From Acidimicrobiales bacterium (GTDB lineage Bacteria > Actinomycetota > Acidimicrobiia > Acidimicrobiales > Acidimicrobilacustridaceae): a stretch of DNA of 64,000 bases. The position numbers and the translations under genes were made by a program. Below, piece after piece: positions 32,413 through 58,612 of the stretch. The notes below the pieces were generated by a model. The model searched no databases. It was not told the DNA's origin and was given only the letters and a program-made list of their open reading frames with translations. The stretch's first letter is position 1, and every line of letters begins with the position of its first letter. The stretch covers positions 24,047 to 88,046 of the forward strand of contig JAURMR010000026.1 of the NCBI GenBank assembly GCA_030830565.1. The letters are read 5' to 3'.

Positions 32413-32871
32413 GTGGGGCAGTATCTGCCGATCTTCGCGATGCTTGTGTTGGCGATCATTTTCGCCGCCGTGAGCCGCGTTGTTTCGCAACTCCTCGCGC
32501 CCCGTCGACCTTCCGAAGCCAAGTCGTCTCCGTACGAATGCGGCATCGTGCCCGACCAAGGTCCGCCGGAACGATTCCCGGTGAAGTTCTTTCTGGTCGC
32601 GATGATTTTCATCGTGTTCGACATTGAAATCATTTTCTTGTTCCCGTTTGCGGTTGTGTTTCGTTCTCTTGGTGGCTACGGAATCGCTGCGATTCTGATT
32701 TTCACCGCAGCAGTGTTCGAGTCATTCGTGTATCTCATCGGCAACGGCGCGCTTGACTGGGGTCCGGCCAAGCATCTGCGTCGTTCCGGTGTTGTTTCTC
32801 CTGCCCGTACAGCGACGAGCACAATCCGTCGCGTCGGCCTCGAAGGCCGTTCGACTGAAGAGGCCGCATAA
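32413..32871 (+). CDS. nuoA: NADH:quinone oxidoreductase subunit A (first complex I)
   Basis: A small three-helix membrane subunit of complex I near the quinone channel, 152 residues with a GTG start. Conserved points are YECGIVP after helix 1 and FDIEIIFLFPF in helix 2. The 35-residue basic C-terminal tail (RRSGVVSPARTATST) is longer than usual. It is the first of fourteen genes nuoA-N. Stop and nuoB start are adjacent. Confidence 0.95.
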   Translation: MGQYLPIFAMLVLAIIFAAVSRVVSQLLAPRRPSEAKSSPYECGIVPDQGPPERFPVKFFLVAMIFIVFDIEIIFLFPFAVVFRSLGGYGIAAILIFTAAVFESFVYLIGNGALDWGPAKHLRRSGVVSPARTATSTIRRVGLEGRSTEEAA

Positions 32872-33459
32872 GTGTCGAGCGAGACCAGGCCAACAGGCGG
32901 ACTCCTTGAGTCCGGACTTGAAGGACTTAGCCACAACTTCCTTACCGGCACGCTTGAAGAGCTCGTCAAGTGGGCCCGTCGCCACAGTGTGATGCCCGCC
33001 ACGTTCGGTCTCGCGTGTTGCGCACTCGAGATGATGGCGGCTGGTGGTCCCCACTACGACCTCTCGCGCTACGGCATGGAAACCTTCCGCGCTTCGCCTC
33101 GTCAGGCCGATCTCATGATCGTTGCCGGGCGCGTGTCACAGAAGATGGCTCCGGTTCTTCGCCAGATTTACGACCAGATGATGGAACCCAAGTGGGTTAT
33201 CTCGATGGGAGTGTGTGCATCTTCAGGCGGCATGTTCAACAACTACGCCATCGTGCAGGGCGTCGATCAGATCGTTCCGGTCGATGTCTACGCACCGGGT
33301 TGTCCACCATCACCCGAAACGCTCATGCACGCGATCCTCACGCTTCACGACAAGATCAAGACCGGTGAACTCACTCGCCGCAAGGGTGAAGGCCTTGGTT
33401 TGGTCGTTGAACAGATGGGTCCCTCAGGACCTGTGCCTGTCACCTTGGGTCAGGGCTGA
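32872..33459 (+). CDS. nuoB: NADH:quinone oxidoreductase subunit B (first complex I)
   Basis: A 195-residue subunit that holds cluster N2, the last Fe-S centre before quinone. The four ligands are C49, C50 ([11 protein letters not shown]), C115 (MGVCASSGG) and C144 ([10 protein letters not shown]). It has a GTG start directly after the nuoA stop. The residues after C115 (ASSGGMFNN) differ from the second copy (ANCGGPYWD) in this window, showing the two nuoB genes are distinct lineages, not a recent duplication. Confidence 0.96.
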
Positions 33460-33461
33460 AC

Positions 33462-33992
33462 ATGACCGACATCGACGCCCAAGGTGGCGAGGCTGACACC
33501 CCAGCCGAGATCGCACCCGAGACCCTTTTCGACACCCTGCTGACTCGTTCACATGAGCAGCTTGTGTTGCATCCAATGCGAGAGAAGTACTCCTCTCTGC
33601 TCGCAACACTTCACAGTGCCGGATATCACTCCGTTATCGATTTGTGTGGAGTCGATTACCTCACAAACGATTCGCGCCAACTTCCCGAGGGCATTGAGCC
33701 GGAGCGTTTCGAAGTTGTGGTGAACCTCATCAACCACCGCGAACGTGCTCGACTTCGCTTACGAGTGCAGGTTCCTGAAACTGACCCTGTGCTTCCTTCG
33801 GCGTTCAATCTCTATCCCGGTACCGAAGCCATGGAACGTGAAACTTTCGACATGTTCGGCATCGCGTTCGATGGTCACCCTGACCTCACCCGAATCCTCA
33901 TGCCCGAGGACTGGATCGGACACCCGCTGCGCAAGGACTACGACGTAGGTCGAATTCCGGTGCAGTTCAAGGGCGCTCCCGCGAATCGTTGA
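33462..33992 (+). CDS. nuoC: NADH:quinone oxidoreductase subunit C (first complex I)
   Basis: A 176-residue peripheral-arm subunit with no cofactor. The family signature is near the C-terminus: [20 protein letters not shown] followed by [11 protein letters not shown]. An acidic N-terminal stretch ([12 protein letters not shown]) precedes it. It lies two bases after nuoB and 4 bases before nuoD. Confidence 0.95.
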
Positions 33993-33996
33993 TCTC

Positions 33997-35331
33997 ATGA
34001 CTGCAACTCACGAACTTCCTACGAATGTGAAGCAGACCTCCGAAGGCGGTCAAGAACTCACCTCAGCCGATGTTGTGGCTGCTGGCGAGCGACTCCGCGA
34101 ACTCGGGGCAGTTCTGCGCTTATCTGAGAACGACGCCCTCGTCGCCGAACGTGAACAGGTTTCCGACGACGAAACCATGATCATCAATATGGGTCCACAG
34201 CATCCGTCGACTCACGGTGTGTTGCGTCTCATGCTTGAGCTTCAGGGCGAGACCGTCCTTCGTTGTAAGCCCATCATCGGATACCTACATACCGGTATGG
34301 AGCGAACGGGCGAAGAACTCACCTATTTGCAGGGCCCCACCAACGTGACGCGCATGGATTACGCAGCGCCGTTGTTCACGGAACTTGCCTTCTCGCTCAC
34401 CGTTGAGAAGTTGCTCGACATCGAGGTGCCCGAGCGCGCGATCTGGATCCGCATGCTCATGACGGAGATGAATCGCATCTCTTCGCACCTGCTCTTCATG
34501 GCGACGAACGGCATGGATCTTGGGGCAGTGTCGATGATGCTTTACGGCTGGCGTGAACGCGAAGAAGCGCTTCGCTTCCTTCAGGAAGTCACCGGTCTGC
34601 GCATGAATCACAACTACATCCGTCCGGGTGGTGTCGCTGCCGATCTTCCCGACGGCTGGCGCGACGGTGTTCTGCGTCTACTGGACATGCTTCCTGGCCG
34701 CCTTGCGGAATACGACACGCTGCTTAACCAGCAGCCGATTTGGCGTGAACGACTTCAGGGTGTGGGCGCGATTTCTGCAGACGAATGTCTCGCTCTCGGA
34801 GTAACCGGACCGATCCTGCGTTCGACTGGTTACGACTGGGATCTTCGTCGCGATATGCCGTACCTCGCGTTCGACCAGGTGGACTTCGACGTAGTTGTCG
34901 GTTCGTATGGCGACTGTTTCGACCGTTACGCAATCCGCCTTGCGGAAATTCACGAGTCGATGAAGATCGTCCGTCAGTGCCTCGAAAAGATGCCGAAGGG
35001 CGACTACCGCATCCAAGACAAGAAAGTCACTCCGCCGCCGCGTGCGCGAATCGACGAGTCCATGGAAGCGCTCATCCACCACTTCAAGATCTTCACCGAA
35101 GGCTTCAAAGTTCCCGAGGGCGAGGCCTACGTTTCAATCGAATCGCCTCGCGGTGAACTCGGTTGCTACATCGTGAGCGACGGTTCATCGAAGCCGTACC
35201 GCATGCACGTTCGTGCCCCAAGTTTCGTGAACCTTCAAAGCCTTCCGCATCTCATGCACGGAAGCCTTGTTGCCGACGCCGTGGCCATCATCTCGAGCGT
35301 CGATCCCATCCTCGGGGAGGTCGATCGCTAA
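33997..35331 (+). CDS. nuoD: NADH:quinone oxidoreductase subunit D (first complex I)
   Basis: A 444-residue subunit that forms the quinone-binding cavity with NuoB. The core starts at INMGPQHPSTHGVLRLML near residue 64 and ends in EVDR. The quinone-head ligands His and Tyr are expected in GPQHPSTHG and in GYLHTGMERTGEELTYLQG. A 60-residue N-terminal extension is longer than in the second copy. The TAA stop overlaps the nuoE start by one base. Confidence 0.96.
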   Translation: MTATHELPTNVKQTSEGGQELTSADVVAAGERLRELGAVLRLSENDALVAEREQVSDDETMIINMGPQHPSTHGVLRLMLELQGETVLRCKPIIGYLHTGMERTGEELTYLQGPTNVTRMDYAAPLFTELAFSLTVEKLLDIEVPERAIWIRMLMTEMNRISSHLLFMATNGMDLGAVSMMLYGWREREEALRFLQEVTGLRMNHNYIRPGGVAADLPDGWRDGVLRLLDMLPGRLAEYDTLLNQQPIWRERLQGVGAISADECLALGVTGPILRSTGYDWDLRRDMPYLAFDQVDFDVVVGSYGDCFDRYAIRLAEIHESMKIVRQCLEKMPKGDYRIQDKKVTPPPRARIDESMEALIHHFKIFTEGFKVPEGEAYVSIESPRGELGCYIVSDGSSKPYRMHVRAPSFVNLQSLPHLMHGSLVADAVAIISSVDPILGEVDR

Positions 35332-35945
35332 TGGCTCGCCTTACGAACGACAACGTTGAACTCGCGCGCGAAATCATTGGCCGCTACCCGCGTCCGAAGT
35401 CTGCGCTCATCCCCTTGTTGCACCTTGCACAAGAACAAGACGGGTATCTCACCGACGACGCAATGGCGCATATCGGTGAACTCGTCGGCGTTTCATCTGC
35501 TGAAGTTCTCGGGACTGCATCCTTCTACGAGATGTTCAAGATGGAGCCTGTTGGCCGCTACATGGTCAATATCTGCACCAATATTTCGTGCCAGCTGCGC
35601 GGTGGCGAGGAACTTCTCGCTCACGCAGAAAAGACGCTCGGCATTCGCCCCGGACAAACAACCTCCGACGGTCTTTTCACTCTTGAAGACGTCGAATGCA
35701 TTGCAGCGTGCACCGAAGCTCCGTGCTTGCAGGTGAACTACCGCTACGAACACCGAATCTCGAACGAAGGCTTTGATCAACTCGTGAACGATCTTCGCGC
35801 CGGCCGTCGCACCGACGTTCCCGCACATGGTGTTCTTGCTGAAGTTCGTCAGCACATTCCAGAAGATCGTCGTGCAGGTGTTGTTACCCCTGAAGACAAA
35901 GATGTACCGGTCTGGATCTCAGCAGCGGGGGAGAGCAACCGATGA
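35331..35945 (+). CDS. nuoE: NADH:quinone oxidoreductase subunit E (first complex I)
   Basis: A 204-residue thioredoxin-like subunit with [2Fe-2S] cluster N1a. Ligands are C82 and C87 (NICTNISCQLRGG) and C123 and C127 (ECIAACTEAPC). With NuoF and NuoG it makes the NADH-oxidising module. It starts at ATG 35331, sharing its A with the nuoD stop. It overlaps nuoF by ATGA. No counterpart exists in the second complex I operon. Confidence 0.95.
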   Translation: MARLTNDNVELAREIIGRYPRPKSALIPLLHLAQEQDGYLTDDAMAHIGELVGVSSAEVLGTASFYEMFKMEPVGRYMVNICTNISCQLRGGEELLAHAEKTLGIRPGQTTSDGLFTLEDVECIAACTEAPCLQVNYRYEHRISNEGFDQLVNDLRAGRRTDVPAHGVLAEVRQHIPEDRRAGVVTPEDKDVPVWISAAGESNR

Positions 35946-37285
35946 TTACTGACGCCCCTCGCATCATTACGTCGCGTTTTGACAATGCCGACAGCTTCAC
36001 GCTTTCTGGTTACGAAGCAACAGGCGGCTACCAAGCGCTGCGCAAAGCGCTCGGAATGGGGCCGGCTGCAGTAGCTGACGAAGTCAAGACAGCGACACTT
36101 CTTGGCCGTGGCGGTGCAGGTTTCCCCGCTGGCGTGAAGTGGGGTCTTGCCCCAGAGAACGTGTGGCCTCGTTACCTCGTTGTCAACGGCGACGAGTCCG
36201 AACCGGGCACCTACAAGGATCGCCTCCTCATGGAGCGCGATCCTCACCAGCTCATTGAAGGCGTGCTGCTCGCGTGTTATGCGATCGGTTGCGGCCAAGC
36301 TTTCCTTTACGTGCGCGGCGAAATGCCGCTTGCTCAGGAACGCATCGCTGCCGCACTGAACGATGCCTACGCAGCTGGTTACATCGGCAAGAACATCCTT
36401 GGTTCAAACTTTTCCGTTGACATTGTTCTTTCTTGGGGTGCGGGCGCTTACATCGTGGGCGAAGAAACTGCACTCATCGAAAGTCTTGAAGGCAATCGCG
36501 GTATGCCGCGTCTGAAGCCGCCGTTTTTCCCGGCGGCCAAGGGTCTGTACATGCAGCCCACGATCGTGAACAACGTCGAGACGCTTTCGAATCTGCCCTG
36601 GATCGTTACCAATGGCGGTGAGGCATTCGCAGCACTTGGCGCAGAGACCTCACGCGGCACGCGCATGTTCGCTGTGTCCGGTCATGTGAAGAACCCTGGT
36701 GTGTTCGAGGTCGAATACGGCGTCACCACATTCCGCGATCTCATTTACGCCCCCCAGTACGCAGGCGGCATCCTCGGCGATCGCGCGTTGAAGGCGTATA
36801 TCCCCGGCGGCGCGTCGGCTCCTTGGTTCTTCGAAGAGCATCTTGATCTTCCGCTCGAGAAGGTCACTGTCGATCGTGCCGGTTCAATGCTTGGCTCTGG
36901 TGCTGTCGTCGTAATGGACGAAACCACCGACGCTGTTAAAGCGTGTCTTCGCGTGGTTCGTTTCTTTGCTCGCGAATCGTGTGGCAAGTGCGCACCGTGT
37001 CGCGAAGGAACAACGTGGCTCGAAAAAATTCTGCAACGAATCCAGGATGGTTACGGACGTCCCAGTGATCTCGATCTGCTCATGGATGTCTCTGACAACA
37101 TTTCTCCCGGAATCGCGTGGCCGCCGAAGCAGACAACAATCTGCCCGCTTGGTCCGTCGGCAGTGTCGCCCATCGCGTCGGCTCTGCAGCGTTTCCGTCC
37201 TGAGTTCGAAGCGCGTATTGCTCAGGCCGAAGAGGCTCGTCACTCGGTTCCCGTGAACATCTCGAAGGTGTCGTCGCATGGCTGA
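35942..37285 (+). CDS. nuoF: NADH:quinone oxidoreductase subunit F (first complex I)
   Basis: A 447-residue subunit that binds NADH and FMN. The glycine-rich nucleotide site is LLGRGGAGFPAGVKWG near residue 55, with VVNGDESEPGTYKDR for the flavin side. Cluster N3 cysteines are in ESCGKCAPCREGT (about 343-350) and QTTICPLG (about 400). It overlaps nuoG by 8 bases. Its presence makes this complex a standard NADH-using enzyme. Confidence 0.96.
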   Translation: MITDAPRIITSRFDNADSFTLSGYEATGGYQALRKALGMGPAAVADEVKTATLLGRGGAGFPAGVKWGLAPENVWPRYLVVNGDESEPGTYKDRLLMERDPHQLIEGVLLACYAIGCGQAFLYVRGEMPLAQERIAAALNDAYAAGYIGKNILGSNFSVDIVLSWGAGAYIVGEETALIESLEGNRGMPRLKPPFFPAAKGLYMQPTIVNNVETLSNLPWIVTNGGEAFAALGAETSRGTRMFAVSGHVKNPGVFEVEYGVTTFRDLIYAPQYAGGILGDRALKAYIPGGASAPWFFEEHLDLPLEKVTVDRAGSMLGSGAVVVMDETTDAVKACLRVVRFFARESCGKCAPCREGTTWLEKILQRIQDGYGRPSDLDLLMDVSDNISPGIAWPPKQTTICPLGPSAVSPIASALQRFRPEFEARIAQAEEARHSVPVNISKVSSHG

Positions 37286-39962
37286 GTCGGACGTGACCCC
37301 GATCGACGGCGTGGCCGTCGAAATCAATGGTGTTGAGGTCATCGCCCACAAGGGTGAACTCCTCATCGATGCTGCGGAACGCACTGGCACGTACATTCCG
37401 CGTTTCTGTTACCACGAGCGCATGAACCCCGTCGGCATGTGCAGGATGTGTTTGGTCGAGGTCGATACAGGTCGCGGTCCGGCACTCCAACCGAGCTGCA
37501 TGCTCGAGTGCACGCCTGGGATGAAGGCTGATACAGAATCCGCCGTCACCAAGAAGGCTCAAGACGGCATTCTTGAATTCCTGCTTGCGAATCACCCGCT
37601 TGATTGTCCGGTCTGCGATAAGGGCGGCGAATGCCCGCTTCAGGATCAGACCATGGCCTATGGCCCCGGCGAAAGCCGCTTCGTCGAAGAGAAGCGTCAC
37701 AAGGAAAAGCCGATTCCGATCAGCGACCTTGTGCTCCTCGACCGTGAGCGCTGCATCCTTTGCGACCGTTGCACACGTTTCGCGAAGGAAGTGGCTGGCG
37801 ATCCGCTCATTCACTTCATTCATCGCGGCAACAACACCGAAGTCAATACGTTCCCGGATGAACCATTCGCTTCGTACTTCAGTGGCAACACCGTTCAGAT
37901 CTGTCCGGTGGGCGCGCTTACGTCGTCGACCTACCGTTTCAAGGCTCGTCCCTGGGATCTTGAAACCACTGAATCAACATGTCAGACCTGTTCGGTTGGT
38001 TGTCGTATTTCAATCGACTCATCGCGCGATCAGGTGCAGCGTTTCGCCGGTGTCGACATTGATCCTGTCAACTGGGGTTGGCTGTGCGATAAGGGCCGCT
38101 TCTCCAGCGAAGTCGTAACGTCCGACGCTCGACTTTCCGAGCCGCTCGTGCGAGACGGTTCCGGCCTCGTTCCAGCCAAGTGGTCCGACGCGCTGAATCG
38201 TTTCGCGAAAGCGCTCGACAACGCGTCGTCGGCACAATCGATTGGTGTCATCGGAGGCTCACGTCTCACGAACGAAGACGCCTACGCATGGTCGAAGTTC
38301 TTTAAGGGTGTTCTCGCTACGGACAACGTCGATGCACAACTCGGCGACGGACTTCCCGCTCATGTCGTGCTCGGTCTCCCCAGCGCAACGATCGATGAAG
38401 TTTGCGCTCCCGGCGGCACGGTCTTGTTGCTTGGTCCTGATGTGAAGGAAGAACTTCCGGTTCTGTTCCTTCGTCTCCGCCACGCAGCAGTCGAAGATCG
38501 CGTCACCATCGTCGAGGTTTCACCCCGTTCCACTGGCGTTACTTCTCTCACGAAGGCATCAGTGCATCCTCGCCCGGGCGAAACGGCTGACGTTGTTGCT
38601 GCGCTCATGAGTTCGGCTGCCATCGATCGCGAGATCGCTGGTGTTGCGGCTGCAGAGCTCGAAGCCGCACGCGCCGCACTTGCCGCCGCAACGGGACCAA
38701 TCACTGTGGTGCTCGGTCGCGCATCGCTTGCTGAATCAGCAAGCGTCACTGTCGCCGCTGCTTCAGCCATTCTCGCCGCTCGTCCCGACACCACGTTCCT
38801 TTCGGCGCTTCGCCGCTCGAACGTGCGCGGTGCGCTCGACATGGGTCTTGCCCCGGGACTTCTTCCCGGTCGCGTCACCCTCGAAGACGGTGCTGAGTGG
38901 TACTCCGAAGTCTGGCCATCGATGCCGGCGGCGGTCGGGCTCGACACTGAAGGCATTCTTCGTGCCGCTGCGGACGGACGCATCGACGTCCTTGTTCTCC
39001 TCGGCGCCGATCCGCTTTCCGATTTCACCGATGCCGACCTTGCTGAACGTGGTCTCACTGGTGCGCGCACAGTGCTCTCTGTCGACACCGCACTCAATCC
39101 ATCAAGCAAGCGAGCCGACATTGTCTTGGCTGCGGCAGGTTTCGCCGAAAAGGCCGGCACCACCACCAACATCGAAGGCCGCGTCAGCACGTTGTCGCAG
39201 CGGGTTACGCCGCCAGGCACCGCACGCGCCGACTGGATGCTGGCTGCTGAGGTTTCAACCCGACTCGGAACCGACCTCGGTTTCGAAAGTTTCGGCGACG
39301 TGCTTGCTGAAATCTCTGCAGTCGCACCTGCCTACCTTGCACTCGACCAAGCCATTGCCGAAGGTTCACCCGATGGCGTCATGCTTCCGCTCGACGTTGT
39401 GGTCATCATTGATGAAGACGACGAGGACATTGTGATCGTCGATGAAACTGTCACCGTTTCACAAGACGGTGCCGAGGTCGATGTCACCGCCGATGTTGTC
39501 GTTGATGATGCCGACGCCGCTGACTCGGAAAGTACTGAAGGGCTGATCGAGATCATCGCTGACGACGCGGATGTTGCTGGCTCGATGCCTCCATTTGTGC
39601 AGTTCACCCCAATCCAGATGGTCACCGCTCCTCCGGTGGATTCCTACAGTTTCCGACTTGTCGCTTCTCGCAAGTTGTACGACCAGGGAACGCTGGTGCA
39701 GTCAGCGCCTTCACTGGCACCGCTTGCTCCAGGATCAACGGTCTCGCTGAACCCATGGGAATTCGATCGACTCGGAGTCGCCACGGGTGGCCGTGCAATC
39801 GTTCGCACCGCAAAGGCGTCGGTGAACGTCACCGTTCAGTCCGATTCAGGTGTGCCGCGTGGTGTGGCCGCAATGATCGTGAATCAGGCCGACGGTCGCG
39901 TGAGCGATCTTGTGTCTGCCGATGAACTCGTTGCAGAAGTCAGAATTGAGACTGCACCATGA
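37278..39962 (+). CDS. nuoG: NADH:quinone oxidoreductase subunit G (first complex I), with acidic insertion
   Basis: An 894-residue iron-sulfur subunit. From the N-terminus: a [2Fe-2S] ferredoxin domain (CYHERMNPVGMCRMCLVEVD), a His-Cys3 segment (CPVCDKGGECPLQDQ), [4Fe-4S] sites (CILCDRCTRFAKEV) and CQTCSVGCR, then a molybdopterin-oxidoreductase-like domain without catalytic use. Residues about 702-770 are an unusual acidic insertion rich in Asp, Glu and Val (IIDEDDEDIVIVDE and repeats), just before the C-terminal domain. Codon use there looks like the rest of the gene. It overlaps nuoH by ATGA. Confidence 0.95.
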   Translation: MAESDVTPIDGVAVEINGVEVIAHKGELLIDAAERTGTYIPRFCYHERMNPVGMCRMCLVEVDTGRGPALQPSCMLECTPGMKADTESAVTKKAQDGILEFLLANHPLDCPVCDKGGECPLQDQTMAYGPGESRFVEEKRHKEKPIPISDLVLLDRERCILCDRCTRFAKEVAGDPLIHFIHRGNNTEVNTFPDEPFASYFSGNTVQICPVGALTSSTYRFKARPWDLETTESTCQTCSVGCRISIDSSRDQVQRFAGVDIDPVNWGWLCDKGRFSSEVVTSDARLSEPLVRDGSGLVPAKWSDALNRFAKALDNASSAQSIGVIGGSRLTNEDAYAWSKFFKGVLATDNVDAQLGDGLPAHVVLGLPSATIDEVCAPGGTVLLLGPDVKEELPVLFLRLRHAAVEDRVTIVEVSPRSTGVTSLTKASVHPRPGETADVVAALMSSAAIDREIAGVAAAELEAARAALAAATGPITVVLGRASLAESASVTVAAASAILAARPDTTFLSALRRSNVRGALDMGLAPGLLPGRVTLEDGAEWYSEVWPSMPAAVGLDTEGILRAAADGRIDVLVLLGADPLSDFTDADLAERGLTGARTVLSVDTALNPSSKRADIVLAAAGFAEKAGTTTNIEGRVSTLSQRVTPPGTARADWMLAAEVSTRLGTDLGFESFGDVLAEISAVAPAYLALDQAIAEGSPDGVMLPLDVVVIIDEDDEDIVIVDETVTVSQDGAEVDVTADVVVDDADAADSESTEGLIEIIADDADVAGSMPPFVQFTPIQMVTAPPVDSYSFRLVASRKLYDQGTLVQSAPSLAPLAPGSTVSLNPWEFDRLGVATGGRAIVRTAKASVNVTVQSDSGVPRGVAAMIVNQADGRVSDLVSADELVAEVRIETAP

Positions 39963-41173
39963 ACATGCTCGGTGGTGATCCGCTTCTCTCTGGTCAAGTC
40001 GACCTAGCCGTCGTACTCATCGTCCTTCTGAAGGTCGTTGGCGTCTTCGCGTTCCTTCTGGTGGCGACCATGCTGATGATTTGGTTCGAACGAAAGGTTG
40101 TGGGCGACTTCCAAAACCGAGTCGGACCAAACACCGCTGGTCCGTTCGGCATCCTTCAGACGCTCGCCGATGGCATCAAGTTCTTCTTCAAGGAAGATCT
40201 CATTCCTGATCGCGCAGAACGGCGTGTCTTCATCCTTGCGCCGCTGCTCACAGTGGTACCTGCGTTCTTGTTGTTCACGATTGTTCCGTTCGGTGGCGAT
40301 TTCAGTAACGGTCACGACGGATCAGTCGAACTGTTCGGCCACACCACCTATCTGCAGCTTGCCGATCCTTCGATCGGTATTTTGTTCGCGCTCGCGATGT
40401 CATCCATCGCGGTTTACGGCGTGATGCTCGCCGGTTGGTCATCGGGCTCGAAGTACCCGCTTATCGGTTCAGTGCGCGCGTCAGCCCAGATGGTGTCGTA
40501 CGAAGCTGCACTTGGTCTGTCCGTGTGCGCCGTTGTACTCACCACCGGCACGCTCAGCACCCACGGCATCGTGATGGCGCAGGCGGGAAGCGGTTGGGGC
40601 GGATTCATTCCTCACTGGAATCTCATCGCGGCAGGCTTCGTACCGTTTGTGGTCTTCTTGCTTGCCAGCCAGGCCGAACTCAATCGTCCGCCATTCGATC
40701 TCGTTGAAGCAGAACAGGAACTCGTCGGTAGCTATCACACCGAATATTCCTCAATCCGCTTCGCTCTGTTCTTTGTTGCGGAGTTCATGAACTCCGTCAC
40801 CATGGCCGCAATTATTGTCACCTTGTTCTTGGGCGGCCCCGCTGGCCCCGCACTTCTCGGACCAGGTTGGCTCTGGGGAATCATTTGGTTCCTCCTCAAG
40901 ATGACTGCGTTCCTGTTCCTTTTCGTTTGGGTGCGCAGCACGCTCCCTCGTGTTCGTTACGACCAACTTATGGATCTTGGTTGGAAGGTGCTCATTCCGC
41001 TTTCGCTCGGATGGCTCCTCCTTCTTGCCACCTTCTGGGTGGCTCGCGATCAGCACTGGAATGGATTCGTCACGGTTGCCATTGGCGCTGTCGTTGGCCT
41101 GACTGGCTACGGCTTGCTCAAAGCAGCGATTGCAACCTCAAAAGCTCGCCGACTTGAAGGGGTGGTCGACTGA
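39959..41173 (+). CDS. nuoH: NADH:quinone oxidoreductase subunit H (first complex I)
   Basis: A 404-residue membrane subunit with eight or more helices that forms the quinone entry channel. Family motifs are ERKVVGDFQNRVGPN, GILQTLADGIKFFFKEDL and AELNRPPFDLVEAEQELV, which carries the conserved acidic residues of the proton path. The C-terminal helices extend about 50 residues beyond the usual length. It overlaps nuoG and nuoI by one to four bases. Confidence 0.96.
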   Translation: MNMLGGDPLLSGQVDLAVVLIVLLKVVGVFAFLLVATMLMIWFERKVVGDFQNRVGPNTAGPFGILQTLADGIKFFFKEDLIPDRAERRVFILAPLLTVVPAFLLFTIVPFGGDFSNGHDGSVELFGHTTYLQLADPSIGILFALAMSSIAVYGVMLAGWSSGSKYPLIGSVRASAQMVSYEAALGLSVCAVVLTTGTLSTHGIVMAQAGSGWGGFIPHWNLIAAGFVPFVVFLLASQAELNRPPFDLVEAEQELVGSYHTEYSSIRFALFFVAEFMNSVTMAAIIVTLFLGGPAGPALLGPGWLWGIIWFLLKMTAFLFLFVWVRSTLPRVRYDQLMDLGWKVLIPLSLGWLLLLATFWVARDQHWNGFVTVAIGAVVGLTGYGLLKAAIATSKARRLEGVVD

Positions 41174-41898
41174 TGGGTTACCTCGGTGGTTTCCTGGTCA
41201 GCCTGCGCCAGATCGGTCGCAAGCAGCGCGTTACGACGCAGTATCCAAAAGAAAAGGCACCCAAGCCGATTCGCGTGCACGGTCGTCACGTTCTCAATCG
41301 TTACGAAGACGGAATGGAAAAGTGCATCGGCTGCGAACTCTGCGCCGGCGTCTGTCCTGCCAAGTGCATTTTTGTACGCGGCGCCGACAACCCCATTGAT
41401 GATCCCGTGTCTCCCGGTGAGCGCTTTGGCTACATCTACGAGATCAACTATCTCCGTTGTATCCATTGCGATCTTTGCGTCGAGGCCTGCCCGACTGAAG
41501 CAATTACCGAGAGCAAGATGTTCGAGTTCTCGTTCACAAGTCGTGCCGATGCGATTTACACCAAAGCCGAACTCGTGGTTGACGACGACGGCATGCCGCA
41601 AAAGATGCCATGGGAAGATTGGCGCGAAGGCGAAGACACGCCAACGTCTGCATGGATGCGTGCAACCTCTCCTTCAGGTAGCGCTGCATTCGAAGGCGTT
41701 GTTGGTTGGTCCGGTGAGCTTGGCTACGGAATCCGTGCGCCGGAAGCAGCACAGGACATCAAGGATTCGGTGAACACACCGCTCGACATGATCGATGAGC
41801 ATGGCCATGGTCACGAGGATCACGCGCCAGGTACTCCGGAACACGTTTCTCCCGGACACGACCACCACGACGACGGTGAATGGGGCGGTGATCGCTGA
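41173..41898 (+). CDS. nuoI: NADH:quinone oxidoreductase subunit I (first complex I), with His-rich tail
   Basis: A 241-residue ferredoxin-like subunit holding clusters N6a and N6b: C51/54/57/61 (CIGCELCAGVCP) and C96/99/102/106 (CIHCDLCVEACP). NuoI is usually shorter (about 160-180 residues); here roughly 70 residues are added. They end in a His/Asp-rich tail (DEHGHGHEDHAPG, SPGHDHHDDGE) that could bind divalent metal. The second NuoI in this window lacks it. Confidence 0.94.
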   Translation: MGYLGGFLVSLRQIGRKQRVTTQYPKEKAPKPIRVHGRHVLNRYEDGMEKCIGCELCAGVCPAKCIFVRGADNPIDDPVSPGERFGYIYEINYLRCIHCDLCVEACPTEAITESKMFEFSFTSRADAIYTKAELVVDDDGMPQKMPWEDWREGEDTPTSAWMRATSPSGSAAFEGVVGWSGELGYGIRAPEAAQDIKDSVNTPLDMIDEHGHGHEDHAPGTPEHVSPGHDHHDDGEWGGDR

Positions 41899-41900
41899 TT

Positions 41901-42811: not shown

Positions 42812-42816
42812 GGGCC

Positions 42817-50925: not shown

Positions 50926-51959
50926 CCCTTCTTCTTGCTTCGTTCGCGCCGCCGTATTGGCTTTCGACCCTTATCAAGGTTCTTGTCGTCAGCGCAGTCG
51001 TTCCCACTACCGCCCTTATTCTCGGCATGGTCTTCTTGTTCAAGATCATGTCGTGGATGCAAAGCCGTCTTGGTCCGCAAGAAGCTGGCCCGCGTGGAAC
51101 CCTGCAGCTTCTTGCTGACGGGGTGAAGTTCCTTCAGAAGGAAGACATCGCTCCGAACGGTGCCGATCTCTGGGTCTTTAAGGTCGCGCCGCTCGTGGTG
51201 CTCATGTCCACCCTTCTGCTCTACGTTGCCCTTCCGGCCTCGATGCACCTTGTTGTCGCCGACCTCGACGTTGGTGTGTTCTTCGTGCTTGCGATTTCGT
51301 CGCTTTCGGTCATCGGCGTACTGATGGCGGGTTGGTCATCAGCCAGCAAGTACTCCCTCATGGGTGCGCTTCGTGCTGCCGGTCAGCTCATTGCCTATGA
51401 ACTTCCGATGGTGCTCGCCGTCATCGGTGTCGTCATTCAGGCTGGAACGATGAGCCTCAACGGAATTGTTGTCGCTCAAAATGAGTCGGCGATTTTCGGA
51501 TGGAGCGGCATCGGCTATCCCTACATCCTCACGCAGTTCCTCGGCTTCTTCATCTTCATCGCCGCGGTTCAGGCAGAACTCACCCAGCCTCCGTTCGATA
51601 TGCCAGTTGCCGAATCCGAAATCGTTTCCGGATATCAGGTGGAATACACCGGCTTCCGTTTCCTCATTTTCTTCTTGGCCGAATTTGCGACGGCGTTCGC
51701 CTTTGCTGCAATCGCTGCGGTGCTGTTCCTTGGCGGTTGGGCTGTTCCGTGGCTTCCGGTCTCAAGTGACTGGTATTACGTGCTCGGTCCGATCGTGTTG
51801 TTCGCAAAGGTCATGATCGTTGCGTTCATCATTTTCTGGGTGCGATTCACCTACCCACGTTTCCGTGAAGACCAACTCCAGAGCCTTGCCTGGAAGGTTC
51901 TTATCCCGCTTGCGCTCGTGAACATTGTCGTCACGGCTGTGCTGAAGGTGGTGCTCTGA
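50922..51959 (+). CDS. nuoH: Complex I subunit H, second enzyme
   Basis: A 345-residue membrane subunit with eight helices. Motifs are [35 protein letters not shown] and [18 protein letters not shown]. Normal length; shorter than the first NuoH. It directly follows nuoD, where the EFG genes would stand in a standard operon. Confidence 0.95.
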
Positions 51960-52468
51960 TGCCCCCCAAGCCCAAGGTTCCTGGTCTCATTAAGGGTCTC
52001 GGCGTCACGTTTGGCGAGATGGTCAAGACCCTCAAGGACGGGCCGCAAACCACGCAGTATCCGCATGAACGCGAAGAAGTTGCGCCTCGTGCTCGTGGCG
52101 TTATTGCGCTTCACGAAGAAAACTGCACCTCGTGCATGTTGTGTGCTCGTGAGTGTCCCGATTGGTGCATCTTCATCGAGGCGCACAAGTACCTCGCTCC
52201 GCCGCGCCGCGAGGGTGGCAAGCCGCGCCAGAAGAACCAACTCGATCGTTTCGATATCGACTTTTCGCTCTGCATGTACTGCGGTATCTGCGTCGAGGTT
52301 TGCCCGTTCGATGCGCTTTTTTGGAGCCCCGAACACGAGTACTCCGAAATTCGAATTGCCGATCTTCTCCACGACAAGTCGCGTCTTGACCAGTGGATGC
52401 AAACGGTTCCCGATTTCGAACCGTATGAAGCAGGCTCTGATGCCAAGGTCAGGAAGGTGCCGCGCTGA
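51959..52468 (+). CDS. nuoI: Complex I subunit I, second enzyme
   Basis: A 169-residue subunit with two [4Fe-4S] sites: C56/59/62/66 ([12 protein letters not shown]) and C105/108/111/115 ([12 protein letters not shown]). In complex I without an NADH module, the homologous subunit is the probable entry point for electrons from ferredoxin. It lacks the His-rich tail of the first copy. TGATG overlap with nuoH. Confidence 0.94.
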
Positions 52469-52977
52469 TGCTCGCCCTTCTTGTTGCTCAGAACATCGCG
52501 TTCTACATCATCGCTGCGCTGATGGTGGTTGGTGCGATTCGCGTCGTCACAACCAAGAACGTCATGCACGCCGCACTTTGGCTCGTTCTCGTTCTTTCAG
52601 GTGCTGCGGCCCAGTACATCCTGCTCGCCGCAGAATTTGTTGCCATTACGCAGGTGCTCGTTTATCTCGGTGCCATCATCGTTCTGTTCTTGTTCGGCAT
52701 CATGCTCACCCGAGCAAAGACCGGCAATGACGACGATCTTGATAATAAGAAGTCAGCGAAGTTCATTGGCGCTGGTATCGGTGTTCTCTTGCTTGGGCTC
52801 ATGAGCTTCTCGCTCATCGATGGCTTCAAGGACACTGAATTCGGAGACCTCACGGTGCAGCGCACCGCCGAGGTCAGCGATTCCATCTTCTCGACCTATC
52901 TGCTTCCGTTTGAGGTGTTGTCGGTGCTTCTGCTCGCTGCACTCATTGGCGCCATCGTGATTGCGAGGCGTGACTGA
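52468..52977 (+). CDS. nuoJ: Complex I subunit J, second enzyme
   Basis: A 169-residue, five-helix membrane subunit. The conserved segment is ITQVLVYLGAIIVLFLFGIM. It overlaps the nuoI stop and the nuoK start by one base each. Normal length. Confidence 0.94.
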   Translation: MLALLVAQNIAFYIIAALMVVGAIRVVTTKNVMHAALWLVLVLSGAAAQYILLAAEFVAITQVLVYLGAIIVLFLFGIMLTRAKTGNDDDLDNKKSAKFIGAGIGVLLLGLMSFSLIDGFKDTEFGDLTVQRTAEVSDSIFSTYLLPFEVLSVLLLAALIGAIVIARRD

Positions 52978-53291
52978 TGTTCCTCAACCAGTTCCTCCTC
53001 CTTGCCGCCATTCTCTTTTGCATCGGCGTCTACGGAGTTCTTGCACGCAAGAACGGCGTTCTCGTTCTCATGTCGATCGAACTCATTCTCAATGCAGTGA
53101 ACATCAACCTCGTTGCGTTTGGCGCCTACTGGCACGTGAACGACATGGCCAACGTCTCCGGCCAGGTGTTTGCGCTGTTCGTTATCGCAGTTGCCGCCGC
53201 CGAGGTTGGTGTCGGCCTCGCGCTCGTGCTGCTCATTTACCGGAACCGACAAAGCATCGACATTGATGATGTCGACATGCTGAAGGGCTGA
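52977..53291 (+). CDS. nuoK: Complex I subunit K, second enzyme
   Basis: A 104-residue, three-helix subunit with the glutamates of LMSIELILNAVNI and VAAAEVGVGLALVL. It lies 5 bases before nuoL. Intact, so the membrane proton path looks complete. Confidence 0.95.
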   Translation: MFLNQFLLLAAILFCIGVYGVLARKNGVLVLMSIELILNAVNINLVAFGAYWHVNDMANVSGQVFALFVIAVAAAEVGVGLALVLLIYRNRQSIDIDDVDMLKG

Positions 53292-53296
53292 TCGTC

Positions 53297-55519
53297 GTGT
53301 TCAACATGATCGACAAGGTCTGGATCATCCCCGCCCTCATGGCGGCGTCGTTCCTCGTCATCCTCTTCTTTGGCAAGCGTTGGGGTACACGAGCCACCGC
53401 CGGCATCGGTATCGCCTCGGTGTCCATCTGCCTGATTCTTTCGGTTGTCGTTGCCGGCAACTGGATTAGTCGCGTCAATCATCCACCTACTGGCGCTGCG
53501 CTCGCTGCTGACATCGCCGCTGCGAACGGGCTTACTCCGCAGACGGGCGAAACCATCGGCGAAGAAGCCAATGCCGCCACGAAGGATTCTGGCGAAACTG
53601 TCACTACCGACTCGCACGCGTCCTCGGAAGAGGGTCATGCCGCTGAGTCGGGCGAACATGGTGGAGAACACGAAAGTGTTCCGCCCGTTGTGCGCACCGT
53701 CACCTGGTTCCAAATCGGTGGCATGGAATTCGAGATGGGCACCCTCGTTGACGGCCTTGCCGCAATGATGCTCATCACGGTCTGCATCATTTCGTTGCTG
53801 GTCCACATCTACTCAACTGAGTACCTGCACGGCGACGTTCGTTTCACCCACTACTACGCGTTCCTTTCGCTCTTCACTGCTTCAATGCTCTTCTATGTGC
53901 TCAGCTCGAACACGTTGCAGATGTTGATGGGCTGGGAGCTAGTGGGCGTCTGTTCGTTCGGATTGATTGGCCATTGGTGGGAGGAAAAGAAGAACACCGA
54001 TGCTGCGCTTAAGGCCTTCCTCACCAACCGCGTTGGCGATATCGGTCTCATCCTCGGCGTCATCATCACCTTCTTTGCCGCCGGCGGCATCAGCTTCAAC
54101 GTCCTGCACATCAACGAATATGCGCTGTCGGGTAACGCGAACACCACGCTTTTGTTGGTCGGAGCACTGTGTCTCTTTGGTGGTGTTACCTCAAAGTCAG
54201 GCCAGTTCCCACTGCACACCTGGTTGCCGGACGCTATGGCCGGTCCGACTCCGGTTTCGGCGCTTATTCACGCCGCCACCATGGTTGTCGCCGGTGTGTA
54301 TTTGATCGCCCGGCTCTATGCCGTGTTCTTCTCCGGTCTTGCGATCGGAAGCAGCACCTTCCACTACGTCGCATTCATCGGCGGCTTCACCACCATCATC
54401 GGCGGCCTGTTGGCTTTCGTGCAGACCGACCTCAAGAAGGTGCTGGCGTACTCCACGATTTCGCAGCTTGGCTACATGGTCATGGCGCTCGGTGTTGGCG
54501 CCTGGACCGCTGGTGTGTTCCATCTGTTCACACACGCGTTCTTCAAGGCGTGCTTGTTCCTTGGCGCTGGCTCGGTGAGTCATGCGTGTCACCACACCTT
54601 CGATATGCGCGAGATGGGCGGTCTTCGTAAGAAGATGCCAGTCACGCACGCCACGTTCCTTGTTGCGACTCTTGCGCTCGCAGGCATTTTCCCGCTTGCC
54701 GGTTTCTGGTCGAAGGACGAAATTCTTGCTGGTTCAGCAAGCGGTCAAGAAAACGCTTACACGATCATGCTGATCTTCGGTCTGATCACGGCGTTCCTCA
54801 CCGCTGCGTACATGGGCCGCGCCTACTGGATGACGTTCTGGGGTAAGTACCGCGGTCACGCTCACCCGCACGAATCACCAAAGGTCATCACCGTTCCGCT
54901 CATCATCCTTGCGGGCTGTGCAGTGTTCCTGGGCTTCACGAACTTCCCCAAGTCGTTCTTCGGCATCAAACTGCCGGGGAGCGTTACGACGAGGTTCGAA
55001 CATTTTGTCGAGCCAACGTTCTCCTTTCCTCCGTTGCAGCACGCGGAGTTCACGCCGTGGCTCGCAATTGCCTCGACAATTCTTGCTGCCGGCGGCTTGT
55101 TCCTTGCATACCAGTACTACGAGAAGAATCGCGGTCCGCACGGACTGACCTCTCGCAACAAGGTCGCGCTTGCCGGTTACACCTTCCTCGAGAACAAGTA
55201 CTACCTCGACGATCTCTACACCGGCGTTATCGCGGGCAGTACGAAGGGCCCGATCGCCCGTGCTGCGAATTGGTTCAATCAGAACATCCTTGATGGCGTC
55301 ATCAATGGCATCGGATTTGTCGCTCGCAAGATCGCAGGCGTCGTCTATGTCTTTGGTGATCAGCTCATCATCGATGGAGCAGTGAACGGATCAGGTCAAG
55401 GTTCTGAAGGAGCAGGTCAACTGCTTCGCAAGATCCAGACCGGCAAGGTCCAGCAGTACGCCTCGATCCTCTTTGCCGGCGCGGTCGTCCTCGCCGGTGT
55501 ACTCGTGTTCGTCGTCTAG
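53297..55519 (+). CDS. nuoL: Complex I subunit L, second enzyme
   Basis: A 740-residue antiporter-like subunit with a GTG start. Motifs are WELVGVCSFGLIGHWWEEKK, GKSGQFPLHTWLPDAMAGPT-like (TSKSGQFPLHTWLPDAM) and LAYSTISQLGYMVMALG. Residues about 75-140 form an acidic/His-rich extracytoplasmic loop (SHASSEEGHAAESGEHGGEH) not found in the common family. The amphipathic connecting helix and final helix of NuoL are present at the C-terminus. Confidence 0.94.
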   Translation: MFNMIDKVWIIPALMAASFLVILFFGKRWGTRATAGIGIASVSICLILSVVVAGNWISRVNHPPTGAALAADIAAANGLTPQTGETIGEEANAATKDSGETVTTDSHASSEEGHAAESGEHGGEHESVPPVVRTVTWFQIGGMEFEMGTLVDGLAAMMLITVCIISLLVHIYSTEYLHGDVRFTHYYAFLSLFTASMLFYVLSSNTLQMLMGWELVGVCSFGLIGHWWEEKKNTDAALKAFLTNRVGDIGLILGVIITFFAAGGISFNVLHINEYALSGNANTTLLLVGALCLFGGVTSKSGQFPLHTWLPDAMAGPTPVSALIHAATMVVAGVYLIARLYAVFFSGLAIGSSTFHYVAFIGGFTTIIGGLLAFVQTDLKKVLAYSTISQLGYMVMALGVGAWTAGVFHLFTHAFFKACLFLGAGSVSHACHHTFDMREMGGLRKKMPVTHATFLVATLALAGIFPLAGFWSKDEILAGSASGQENAYTIMLIFGLITAFLTAAYMGRAYWMTFWGKYRGHAHPHESPKVITVPLIILAGCAVFLGFTNFPKSFFGIKLPGSVTTRFEHFVEPTFSFPPLQHAEFTPWLAIASTILAAGGLFLAYQYYEKNRGPHGLTSRNKVALAGYTFLENKYYLDDLYTGVIAGSTKGPIARAANWFNQNILDGVINGIGFVARKIAGVVYVFGDQLIIDGAVNGSGQGSEGAGQLLRKIQTGKVQQYASILFAGAVVLAGVLVFVV

Positions 55520-55536
55520 GAGCCCAGGACAATTCG

Positions 55537-57096
55537 ATGAAAGATTTCCTGAACAGTTGGGGTATCAGCCTGATGGTGTTCCTCCCACTTGTGGGAGCAC
55601 TCGCCATGTTGGTCGTGCCCAAGGCCAAGGAGCAGTTCCACAAGGTTGTCGCATTGGCGGCAAGCCTCGTGGTGGGCTTCATCGGCATTCTGATCATGAC
55701 CAACTTCGACTACGACGCGAACGGTCAGCTGCAGTTTGTTGTTGACAAGGCGTGGATCCCGATCATCAACAGCCGATACATCGTGGGAATCGACGGCATC
55801 TCGCTGCCGATGATCGCCCTCACGCTGCTCATCGTGCCGTTGTGCATCATCTACTCCTGGAATCACTTCCCGGAACCGAAGAACCCCAAGGCGTTCCTTA
55901 TTCTGATTCTCATCCTCGAAACCGGCATGCTCGGTTCGTTCGTTGCGCAGGACCTCATCCTGTTCTTCGTCTTCTTCGAGGTTGTGCTCCTCCCGATGTA
56001 CTTCATGATCGGCGTGTGGGGTGGGGAAAAGCGTCAGTACGCGTCGCTCAAGTTCTTCCTCTACACGTTGTTCGGTTCGGCGCTCATGATCGTCGCCTTC
56101 CTTTCGCTGTATTTCCTCTCCGACAAGATCCCGGTCAACGGCGAGATGATGCATTCGTTCGACATGCGCCTACTCCCCGAACTCGCCACTGGTATTTCCA
56201 CCGGTGCTGCGCTCTGGATCTTCGGTGGCATGTTCATGGGCTTCGGCATCAAGGTTCCGATGTTCCCGTTCCACACGTGGTTGCCCGACGCGCACACGCA
56301 GGCGCCGACCGTTGGTTCGGTCATCCTGGCCGCAGTGCTCCTGAAGCTCGGAACGTACGGCTTCATCCGTATCGCCATTCCGATCCTTCCCGGTGCTGCA
56401 GAGAAGTGGGCGCCGTTCATCGGTCTGCTCGCGGTGATCGGCATCATCTACGGAGCTCTGTGCTGTTTGGCGCAGACCGACATGAAGCGACTCATCGCGT
56501 TCTCATCGGTTTCGCATATGGGTTTTGTGATGCTTGGTATCGCCACGCTCACCACCTTCGGTTTCCAAGCCGCAATTTTCGGCATGGTTGCTCACGGCCT
56601 CATCACCGGCATGCTCTTCTTCGTCGCTGGTTCAACCAAGGACCGCTACCACACCCTCGACATCTCACGACTGGGCGGCATGCTCAAGTCGATGCCGCAT
56701 ATGGGCTGGATCCTCGGCTTCTCGGTCATGGCCTCTCTCGGGCTTCCCGGTCTTGCCGGTTTCTGGGGCGAGTTCCCTGCGATCCTGTCGGCCTATAACC
56801 CAGGTCTTGGTCTGAACGTCGCCTTCTTCCGTGTACTCATGGTGATCGCCGCTGTTGGCACGGTTCTTGCCGCTGCCTACCTCCTGTGGATGTATCAGCG
56901 TGTCGGCTTCGGTGTTCCGACGAAGGAATTTGAAGACGATCCACACCTGCATGACGTGACGTTCACTGAATGGGTGGCGTGGACTCCGATGCTCATCCTC
57001 ATCGTTGTGCTCGGCTTTGTTCCCAACATCATCTTCAAGGTCACTGACGGTGCGGTTTCCAACACCATCGCGATCGTGAACGGGCTCGGAGGCTGA
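55537..57096 (+). CDS. nuoM: Complex I subunit M, second enzyme
   Basis: A 519-residue antiporter-like subunit. Motifs are FEVVLLPMYFMIGVWGGEKR with the functional glutamate, IKVPMFPFHTWLPDAHTQAP and FSSVSHMGFVMLGIATL. It lies 17 bases after nuoL with its own Shine-Dalgarno (AGGAGCCC region). Normal length. Confidence 0.95.
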   Translation: MKDFLNSWGISLMVFLPLVGALAMLVVPKAKEQFHKVVALAASLVVGFIGILIMTNFDYDANGQLQFVVDKAWIPIINSRYIVGIDGISLPMIALTLLIVPLCIIYSWNHFPEPKNPKAFLILILILETGMLGSFVAQDLILFFVFFEVVLLPMYFMIGVWGGEKRQYASLKFFLYTLFGSALMIVAFLSLYFLSDKIPVNGEMMHSFDMRLLPELATGISTGAALWIFGGMFMGFGIKVPMFPFHTWLPDAHTQAPTVGSVILAAVLLKLGTYGFIRIAIPILPGAAEKWAPFIGLLAVIGIIYGALCCLAQTDMKRLIAFSSVSHMGFVMLGIATLTTFGFQAAIFGMVAHGLITGMLFFVAGSTKDRYHTLDISRLGGMLKSMPHMGWILGFSVMASLGLPGLAGFWGEFPAILSAYNPGLGLNVAFFRVLMVIAAVGTVLAAAYLLWMYQRVGFGVPTKEFEDDPHLHDVTFTEWVAWTPMLILIVVLGFVPNIIFKVTDGAVSNTIAIVNGLGG

Positions 57097-57100
57097 TCCG

Positions 57101-58612
57101 TTGCTCGCCCAGTTGCTGACCTTCGCCTGGAGTGCTCCAAGCCTCGACTATCACGCGCTCGCGCCCGAAATCATCGTGGCTGCGACCATCGTGGTGTTGA
57201 TTCTGCTCGATGCCTTCACTGGCGAGCGCTCGCGATGGGCGTCGTCATCGGTTGCCGGTATCGGTCTGCTGCTCGCGCTGATCCCTATTGCCACGCTGGC
57301 CTACGACGGCGTCGACCGAGTGATGTTCGGCGGCGGTTTCGTTGTCGACAGCTACGCACTCATCTTGCAGGCGCTGTTCCTTATCTCGGGTTACGTCGTG
57401 ATTCTTCTCTCGACGAACTACATCGCCGAAGGCGACTATCACGAGGGCGAGTACTACACGCTCCTGTTGTCGTCGGTGCTCGGCATGATGGTGATGGCGT
57501 CGGCTCGGGACCTCATCAGCATCTTCATTGCGCTTGAACTTGTTTCCATCCCGGCGTACATGATGGCGGCCTGGCGTAAGCGTGATCAGAAGAGCAACGA
57601 AGCGGGCTTGAAGTACTACCTCATGGGTGTTTTCGCATCCGCGATTCTTCTTTACGGCATGTCGCTTGTCTTCGGCATTACCGGGTCCACTTTGCTTGTC
57701 GAAATCGGAGCTGATCTCGGCTCGTATGTTTCTTCGCAACCGATCATCACACTGGGCATTGCATTTGTGCTTATTGGTTTTGCGTTCAAGGTCTCGGCGG
57801 TTCCGTTCCACCAGTGGGCGCCTGACACCTACGAAGGTGCGCCCACTCCGGTCACCTCGTTCTTGGCGGTTGCGTCCAAAGCTGCTGGATTTGTCGCAAT
57901 TCTCAATGTTCTGTTCATCGGTTTCTACGGCCGTAACGATGTGTGGGAGCCGCTTATGTGGGCGCTCGCTGCACTTTCGATGACCGTTGGCAATCTCATT
58001 GCCCTTCGCCAAACCAACGTCGTTCGCATGTTGGCCTACTCCGGTATCGCCCAGGCCGGCTACATCCTTGCTCCGCTCGCAGTTGCAGGTGCATCGCTTG
58101 GCACAGGCGGCGAAGCACTTCGTTCCATCGTTGTGTACTTGCTCATCTACGCAGGCATGAACCTTGGTGCCTTTGCTGTCGTGCTGGCTGTTGCCCGCAA
58201 GACGCGCTCAGGCGAGATCAAGAGTTTCGGTGGATTGTTCTCGTACGCACCGGCGCTCACGGTGTGCATGACGATCTTCCTGTTCTCGCTCGCTGGCATT
58301 CCTCCGGCGGCGGGTTGGTTTGCCAAGCTTTCGATCTTCAGTTCGCTGGCCTCGGCTGGAACGGCCTCGGGCTATGTGCTCGCAGTCATCGTGGGTCTTA
58401 ACTCGGTGATCGCGTTCGGTTACTACGGCCGCCTCATTCGTGTGATGTGGATGGACGAAGCCCCCGATGGCGATCGCTCTCCAATCAAGGTGCCGGCTTC
58501 GCTGTCGTTCGCACTCATCATCACCATGGCCGTCACGCTGGTGTGGGGTGTCTTCCCCGGAGCGCTTACGCACTTCACTGATCAGGTCACGCTCTTCTCG
58601 CTGCTGCGTTAA
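57101..58612 (+). CDS. nuoN: Complex I subunit N, second enzyme
   Basis: A 503-residue antiporter-like subunit with a TTG start at 57101, four bases after the nuoM stop. Motifs are LISIFIALELVSIPAYMMAA, AFKVSAVPFHQWAPDTYEGA and MLAYSGIAQAGYILAPLAV. It is the last complex I gene of the second operon; the midA methyltransferase gene follows six bases later with no terminator. Confidence 0.94.
   Translation: MLAQLLTFAWSAPSLDYHALAPEIIVAATIVVLILLDAFTGERSRWASSSVAGIGLLLALIPIATLAYDGVDRVMFGGGFVVDSYALILQALFLISGYVVILLSTNYIAEGDYHEGEYYTLLLSSVLGMMVMASARDLISIFIALELVSIPAYMMAAWRKRDQKSNEAGLKYYLMGVFASAILLYGMSLVFGITGSTLLVEIGADLGSYVSSQPIITLGIAFVLIGFAFKVSAVPFHQWAPDTYEGAPTPVTSFLAVASKAAGFVAILNVLFIGFYGRNDVWEPLMWALAALSMTVGNLIALRQTNVVRMLAYSGIAQAGYILAPLAVAGASLGTGGEALRSIVVYLLIYAGMNLGAFAVVLAVARKTRSGEIKSFGGLFSYAPALTVCMTIFLFSLAGIPPAAGWFAKLSIFSSLASAGTASGYVLAVIVGLNSVIAFGYYGRLIRVMWMDEAPDGDRSPIKVPASLSFALIITMAVTLVWGVFPGALTHFTDQVTLFSLLR

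Follow-up and report, generated by a model that had tools for sequence, protein, structure and literature searches.

Two complex I operons and an adjoining methyltransferase gene

The window analyzed here is a 64,000-nucleotide stretch (G000:C20:24047-88046) of an Acidimicrobiales genome (G000; 2.0 Mb in 44 contigs, 71% complete) and carries two complex I operons back to back, followed by a gene for a methyltransferase of the MidA/NDUFAF7 family whose putative target is an arginine in the NuoD protein of the second operon (Table 1). The first operon, nuo1, encodes 14 subunits; the second, nuo2 (48227-58612), is a complete set of 11 genes, nuoABCDHIJKLMN, without nuoE, nuoF, or nuoG. All 25 nuo genes are open frames on the forward strand and in the expected order: the nuo1 proteins match fitting Pfam families above cut-off in 14 of 14 cases, and the products of nuoA2 to nuoM2 match the NCBIfam models of their own subunits, several of them under the curated cut-offs. 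(The starts of nuoE1, nuoM1, nuoB2, and nuoC2 are our choice, the mechanically called frames being longer, and the NuoB2 and NuoC2 proteins in the NCBIfam scan began upstream of the chosen start codons.) The original prediction had described complete 14- and 11-subunit operons separated by 78 bases (nuoN1 ends at 48148, nuoA2 begins at 48227), an overlap between nuoD2 and nuoH2 (a shared ATGA), and intact ligands of clusters N2 and N6; each of these descriptions holds, the last by the NuoB2 cysteines listed in Table 1 and by both CxxCxxCxxxCP motifs of NuoI2 (N6a and N6b).

A distant second nuoEFG set, for which a genome-wide search had been proposed, was not found: G000 has two NuoB genes and one NuoF gene (domain at 36083-36598, or G000:C20:60129-60644), and four congeners, 93 to 100% complete, possess one NuoF-type (PF01512) gene each, although elsewhere in the class there are genera with 2 to 5 such genes. 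In gene content, in its N2, N6a, and N6b ligands, and in the lack of a second nuoEFG set in a genome 71% complete, nuo2 is an 11-subunit complex I without an N module.

The two enzymes are distinct and old. Over matched stretches, the copies share 47% identity in NuoB, 39% in NuoD, 28% in NuoI, and 43% in NuoH, too little for a recent duplication. In a tree of 113 NuoD sequences (SH-aLRT support only, with long branches outside), the NuoD1 proteins of the class (40 rows) form one clade and its NuoD2 proteins (30 rows) another, the latter nested in a 65-member clade that includes NuoD2 of further classes in the phylum; both enzymes are therefore older than the class. The prediction that these copies are no recent tandem duplicates is thus upheld, and the phylogeny it called for, carried out with NuoD in place of NuoB, gives two separate old clades rather than sister paralogues within one genus. 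The same divergence bears on the idea that both Q modules share a single NuoEFG, which would make the second enzyme another NADH dehydrogenase: the genus has one nuoEFG set and nuo1 accompanies nuo2 almost throughout (see below), but the strong divergence of NuoI and NuoB between the copies makes this very improbable.

The second enzyme is widespread in the class. Our profile surveys (NuoB, KorA, CofD, PF04432, and PF02636) cover the same 296 class genomes; co-occurrence tables were compiled by hand from the search outputs, and genomes unlisted as matches were counted as lacking the gene. NuoB is matched in 294 of the 296, and a NuoB2-type protein (E below 1e-60) in 239, including 170 of 209 good-quality genomes; all but 7 of these 239 have at least two NuoB matches, that is, nuo1 as well. 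For a detailed set, we picked 20 genomes from 18 families with NuoB2 on long contigs; two other fetched stretches, from G021 and G120, were not used. Wherever the fetched stretch spans the operon, the order nuoABCDHIJKLMN is preserved. Immediately before nuoA2 comes nuoN1 in 7 of the 20 (its match beginning 1.6 to 1.9 kb before nuoA2); on the same strand, the 16 kb ahead of nuoA2 contain it in 16 genomes and not in 4. The paired arrangement itself is already published; the new point is the linked methyltransferase.

Further observations concern NuoB2 (48592-49092) and its relatives. The protein has an extra cysteine, Cys104 (GSCANCGG), three residues after an N2 ligand, and reads FPASPRQ where NuoB1 reads FRASPRQ; among 68 distinct NuoB stretches of the class caught by a pattern, 31 combine P with C, 2 combine P with S, and 35 combine R with S or T. 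The arginine of the NuoB1 motif appears to be the one hydroxylated in mammals, a position we derive from part of PMC3750175. The nearest named relative (L105; NuoB2 96% identical) was deposited as an Acidobacteria metagenome-assembled genome, but its nuo genes are Acidimicrobiia-like and the label is doubtful.

Table 1. Features of the two nuo operons and the methyltransferase gene (positions in the window).
Feature	Coordinates	Strand	Basis and remarks
nuo1 operon, nuoA-B-C-D-E-F-G-H-I-J-K-L-M-N, 14 subunits	32413..48148	+	ORFs, Pfam
nuoD1	33997..35331	+	Thr99 in GYLHTGME at NDUFAF7 target position, codon 34291-34293
nuoA2	48227..48601	+	NF005839, 145 bits (cut-off 163)
nuoB2	48592..49092	+	NCBIfam; N2 ligands Cys34, 35, 101, 131; start chosen
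nuoC2	49073..49753	+	NCBIfam; start chosen
nuoD2	49750..50925	+	NCBIfam; Arg69 in GYMHRGYE, codon 49954-49956
nuoH2	50922..51959	+	NCBIfam; 4-base overlap with nuoD2
nuoI2	51959..52468	+	NCBIfam; both 4Fe-4S motifs intact
nuoJ2	52468..52977	+	NCBIfam
nuoK2	52977..53291	+	NCBIfam
nuoL2	53297..55519	+	NCBIfam
nuoM2	55537..57096	+	NCBIfam
nuoN2	57101..58612	+	Pfam PF00361
MidA/NDUFAF7-family (PF02636) methyltransferase gene	58619..59719	+	Pfam, PDB search, model; 6 bases 3' of nuoN2

The methyltransferase and its putative target in NuoD2

The product of the gene downstream of nuoN2 (366 codons) has both the family profile and the predicted fold of MidA/NDUFAF7. It matches PF02636 with 109 bits (cut-off 23.3), and a PDB sequence search returns a COG1565 protein, a DUF185 protein, and the NDUFAF7 homologue 5ztz (E 2.4e-10). 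With its AlphaFold2 model (pLDDT 95.8, from 44 aligned sequences), the six best Foldseek matches are COG1565, MidA, or DUF185 chains (E 8.6e-26 to 9.8e-22), the next match following at 1.2e-6. Among 44 relatives, G82, G84, and N164 are conserved in at least 90%, and E165 and D168 in all; we take these five to be the S-adenosylmethionine-site residues of NDUFAF7. Across 14 control genomes, PF02636 is matched in Caulobacter, Synechococcus, and Haloferax, with no match in E. coli, Thermus composti, and the remaining controls.

Here and below, published work is drawn on from parts of the papers cited. NDUFAF7 dimethylates Arg85 of human NDUFS2 and is required for complex I assembly (PMC3829151). 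The target arginine lies 3.7 Å from cluster N2 in an HRGXE motif and is replaced by threonine in Thermus (PMC8042128); Paracoccus carries it in dimethylated form, whereas in E. coli it occurs without the modification (PMC3750175). The arginine of the NuoD2 HRG motif stands at this very position of the NuoD/NDUFS2 homologue, where NuoD1 has threonine. The distinction is maintained across the class: NuoD2 reads GYMHRGYE in 19 of the 20 fetched genomes (the remaining one is unreadable), and NuoD1 reads GYLHTGME in 38 of 39 (again with one unreadable), 28 of these deriving from genomes without nuo2. Among sequences from 80 named loci, all 74 of usable length have the NuoD2 arginine.

The gene follows nuo2 in both position and occurrence. 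In the detailed set, it lies directly after nuoN2 in 17 of 20 genomes; in 2 others it is found about 10 kb further along, and in the last one on a separate contig. PF02636 is present in 162 of 170 good-quality genomes with nuo2 versus 6 of 39 without; three of these six exceptions are weak matches (G256, G261, and G285; E 9e-6 to 1e-10), and the other three (G098, G162, and G172) belong to families that mostly keep nuo2. In the 96 genomes of the source order, it is found in 61 genomes with nuo2 and missing from 1, versus 3 and 31, respectively, without nuo2 (Fisher p 1.3e-20).

The strongest point comes from genomes in which nuoD2 has left its operon, because there the gene is tied directly to nuoD2, a link that recurs in more than one NuoD clade. 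Outside the class, 17 genomes (two in f61, nine in f62, three in f73, and one each in f82, f85, and f96) have a nuo2 operon with no nuoD match, and their nuoD2 is found less than 7 kb from a methyltransferase gene (the distance is at most about 3 kb in 15 genomes and 6.5 to 6.7 kb in the other 2); its motif is HRG or HRA in all 17. Three genomes of f73 (L292, L293, and L294; about 8 to 10 Mb) have nuoD2 only 0 to 0.2 kb from the PF02636 gene. Within f61, G329 combines an in-operon nuoD2 with the absence of any PF02636 match, whereas in G301 and G315 nuoD2 lies outside the operon, beside the methyltransferase gene.

Several observations weigh against a methyltransferase dedicated to NuoD2. Fifteen genomes (in f64, f68, f86, f93, f65, and f61) possess HRG, HRA, or HRS in NuoD2 and no PF02636 match, and E. 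coli likewise has the arginine without the gene; the enzyme is therefore not always dependent on the methyltransferase, and a strict rule that HRG requires it is rejected. Some presumed target sites read HRA, and G380 has two PF02636 genes with only a threonine-type NuoD seen. (Among f65 genomes bearing PF02636, the motif is HRG in G333 and unreadable in G344 and G355.) The loss of nuo2 amounts to three changes on the NuoD1 tree (40 rows, 28 without and 12 with nuo2), namely, a clade of 26 rows (23 of which lack the methyltransferase gene) and the single genomes G114 and G036 (which both lack it); with about three loss events, Fisher's p overstates the association. That association is also weaker in the 200 class genomes outside the source order, many of them incomplete: 157 genomes with nuo2 have PF02636 and 20 lack it, against 14 and 9 without nuo2. 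As to the out-of-operon sample, it was drawn around the methyltransferase in genomes having the gene, leaving out G316 and G363 (f62; NuoB2 match, no PF02636), and in f73, f82, and f85 PF02636 is matched less strongly (E 2e-19 to 5e-11).

These points would suit a methyltransferase gene that is a bystander, or acts on some other protein, in a neighborhood inherited without functional meaning: the arginine persists without the gene, independent losses of nuo2 are few, and an acetyl-CoA synthetase-like gene, which in the window comes next (59812-61770), is likewise downstream in 13 of 20 genomes. Yet out-of-operon nuoD2 lies near the gene in 17 of the 17 genomes examined, and the established substrate of NDUFAF7 is the NuoD homologue NDUFS2 (PMC3829151), so we consider this explanation quite improbable.

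We instead favor, with a probability of about 0.66, the reading that the locus encodes two old complex I enzymes and a methyltransferase that likely dimethylates an N2-adjacent arginine found only in the NuoD of the second enzyme. The methyltransferase would act on Arg69 of NuoD2 as NDUFAF7 acts on Arg85 of NDUFS2, presumably during assembly of the Q module, and the second enzyme would pump protons while reducing quinone. Judged from sequence, the gene is likely a dedicated NDUFAF7-type methylase of the N-module-less complex I. Whether this extends to all Actinomycetota seems to us evenly poised: MidA/NDUFAF7 methylation would there belong to the N-module-less complex I, the methylase traveling with nuoD2 also when the latter is out of its operon, and only one of the two enzymes would be marked, such that an N2 with a methylated arginine (in the enzyme for low-potential donors) and an N2 with a threonine (in the NADH enzyme) would sit in one membrane. 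If so, arginine methylation of complex I would not be confined to the Proteobacteria, its supposed home. Cells that have both enzymes would provide an internal control, since removing a single small gene should impair one complex I and leave its neighbor unaffected; the role of NDUFAF7 methylation beyond complex I assembly is unsettled (PMC8042128). In the open-licence literature on MidA or NDUFAF7 with actinobacterial or other bacterial NuoD, we found no account of such a link.

Electron donor of the second enzyme and further features of the region

What donates electrons to 11-subunit complex I is still debated in the literature (PMC11238625). The original prediction had read the pair as a choice between NADH and a low-potential donor feeding one menaquinone pool; its two distinct, old enzymes are supported, whereas the low-potential donor stays a conjecture. 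Neither KorA (TIGR03710) nor the POR_N domain (PF01855) is matched in any of the five genomes of the genus, G000 included. Ferredoxin reduced by a 2-oxoacid oxidoreductase is therefore unlikely in the genus, and KorAB is rejected as an obligate donor.

Across the class, no donor marker is kept wherever the enzyme is. We counted KorA as absent when there was no match or E was above 1e-80 (so that G020, G040, G044, and G216, with part matches, count as lacking it) and CofD, a marker of F420 synthesis, as absent when there was no match or E was above 1e-10; the KorA model also matches weakly in all 14 control genomes, above cut-off in 6. Among the 170 good-quality genomes with nuo2, 26 lack KorA, 69 lack PF04432, 4 lack CofD, and 2 lack all three. 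Both operons occur in G009 (f32; L048 and L068) with no match to KorA, POR_N, CofD, or PF04432, and G080, of the same genus, keeps nuo2 with no match to KorA, CofD, or PF04432. Nor does any of KorA, CofD, and PF04432 track nuo2 in the source order: KorA is present in 41 and absent from 21 genomes with nuo2, versus 24 and 10 without (p 0.82), and the corresponding counts for PF04432, 61 and 1 versus 30 and 4, give no clear link and dismiss it as a nuo2 marker. F420 is likewise rejected as an obligate donor, CofD occurring with and without nuo2 in the order and missing from G009 and G080, which bear nuo2.

The second enzyme might be a ferredoxin:quinone oxidoreductase whose ferredoxin is reduced by KorAB or some other ferredoxin reductase. 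This would agree with the presence of KorA in 144 of the 170 good-quality nuo2 genomes and with the role of ferredoxin as the described donor of the cyanobacterial enzyme and a proposed one in Desulfitobacterium (PMC11238625). We nevertheless hold it to be rather unlikely, given the absence of KorA and POR_N from the genus (other ferredoxin reductases were not searched for), the lack of any association between KorA and nuo2 in the order, and the two f32 genomes that keep nuo2 without KorA, CofD, or PF04432.

An F420H2:quinone oxidoreductase, supplied by an FpoF-like protein from another locus, fits the genus better. All five of its genomes have CofD and PF04432 (the latter found in 169 of 296 class genomes) and lack a POR_N protein as an alternative source, and in the congener G023 a protein of 411 residues (L291:5393-6628) has the FpoF-like make-up of 4Fe-4S, FrhB_N, and FrhB_C domains; F420 has also been proposed for Ca. 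Actinomarinales (PMC7771536), and a review lists the FpoF-type enzyme class for Euryarchaeota (PMC8498797). Against this, the G023 protein scores 131.6 bits with an FpoF model whose cut-off is 475 and its gene is not near nuo2; proteins 63 to 66% identical to it exist in G126, G141, and G250, which are without nuo2; of the order's 34 genomes without nuo2, 30 retain PF04432, which is missing from 69 of the 170 good-quality genomes with nuo2 and from every f29 genome (0.6 to 1.1 Mb, a size resembling that of Actinomarinales). Indeed, F420 synthesis and the FpoF-like protein are kept in most relatives without nuo2. We regard this reading of the second enzyme as possible, at somewhat less than even odds; within the genus, F420H2 via the FpoF-like protein is the best-placed candidate.

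Because KorA, F420 synthesis, and the FpoF-like protein are not kept wherever the enzyme is, the simple answers to the donor question fall away. Since donor markers vary among nuo2 genomes, the second enzyme may well accept more than one kind of donor; a docking site on the Q module that is served by various low-potential donors would fit the finding that none of the three surveyed markers is universally kept.

Two other features of the region deserve mention. Near residues 70 to 130, NuoL2 (53297-55519) has an insert of some 60 residues, rich in His and Glu, that is, by eye, not apparent in NuoL1. Directly upstream of nuoA1, the region 27902-32407 encodes a Rieske protein, a cytochrome c, a cytochrome b split over two genes (27902-28690 and 28635-29483), and a protein of 314 residues for which a Pfam search gave no match; these genes are likely a complex III set adjoining the two complex I sets.

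Comparison with known systems

Paired nuo clusters, one complete and one without EFG, are published for Ca. Actinomarinales, members of the same class, in a paper that favors F420 and refers to a Streptomyces genome as an earlier example (PMC7771536). There, a heliorhodopsin gene and iron genes separate the clusters, whereas only 78 bases do so here, and the part of that paper drawn on mentions no methyltransferase with the pair. Streptomyces also has a second nuo cluster without an N module, but it does not adjoin the first, and nuoD2 is located elsewhere (PMC3765725); a methyltransferase goes unmentioned in the part of that source used, whereas in our data the gene lies beside nuoD2 in the three large f73 genomes, which are probably Streptomyces-like. 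The 11-gene cluster published for a strict anaerobe has the same genes in the same order, with its donor unresolved and ferredoxin proposed, and the part consulted describes no paired 14-subunit set.

Fpo/Fqo F420H2 dehydrogenases share the membrane and Q modules of nuo2, and an FpoF-like protein exists in the genus. Seven Fpo models (C, D, H, I, J, K, and L) are matched by nuo2 proteins, all under cut-off (FpoD 319 of 600, FpoH 259 of 475, FpoL 414 of 1050, and FpoK 112 of 145 bits), and the cut-offs for cyanobacterial/chloroplast NDH-1 are likewise not reached (NdhH 344 of 583 and NdhI 58 of 302 bits). With NDUFAF7/MidA (PMC3829151; 5ztz), the methyltransferase of the window shares the family, the predicted fold, and an HRG arginine in the neighboring NuoD; NDUFAF7/MidA has been described for mitochondria and alphaproteobacteria, with a complex I that has an N module, whereas the gene described here is tied to an enzyme that has none.

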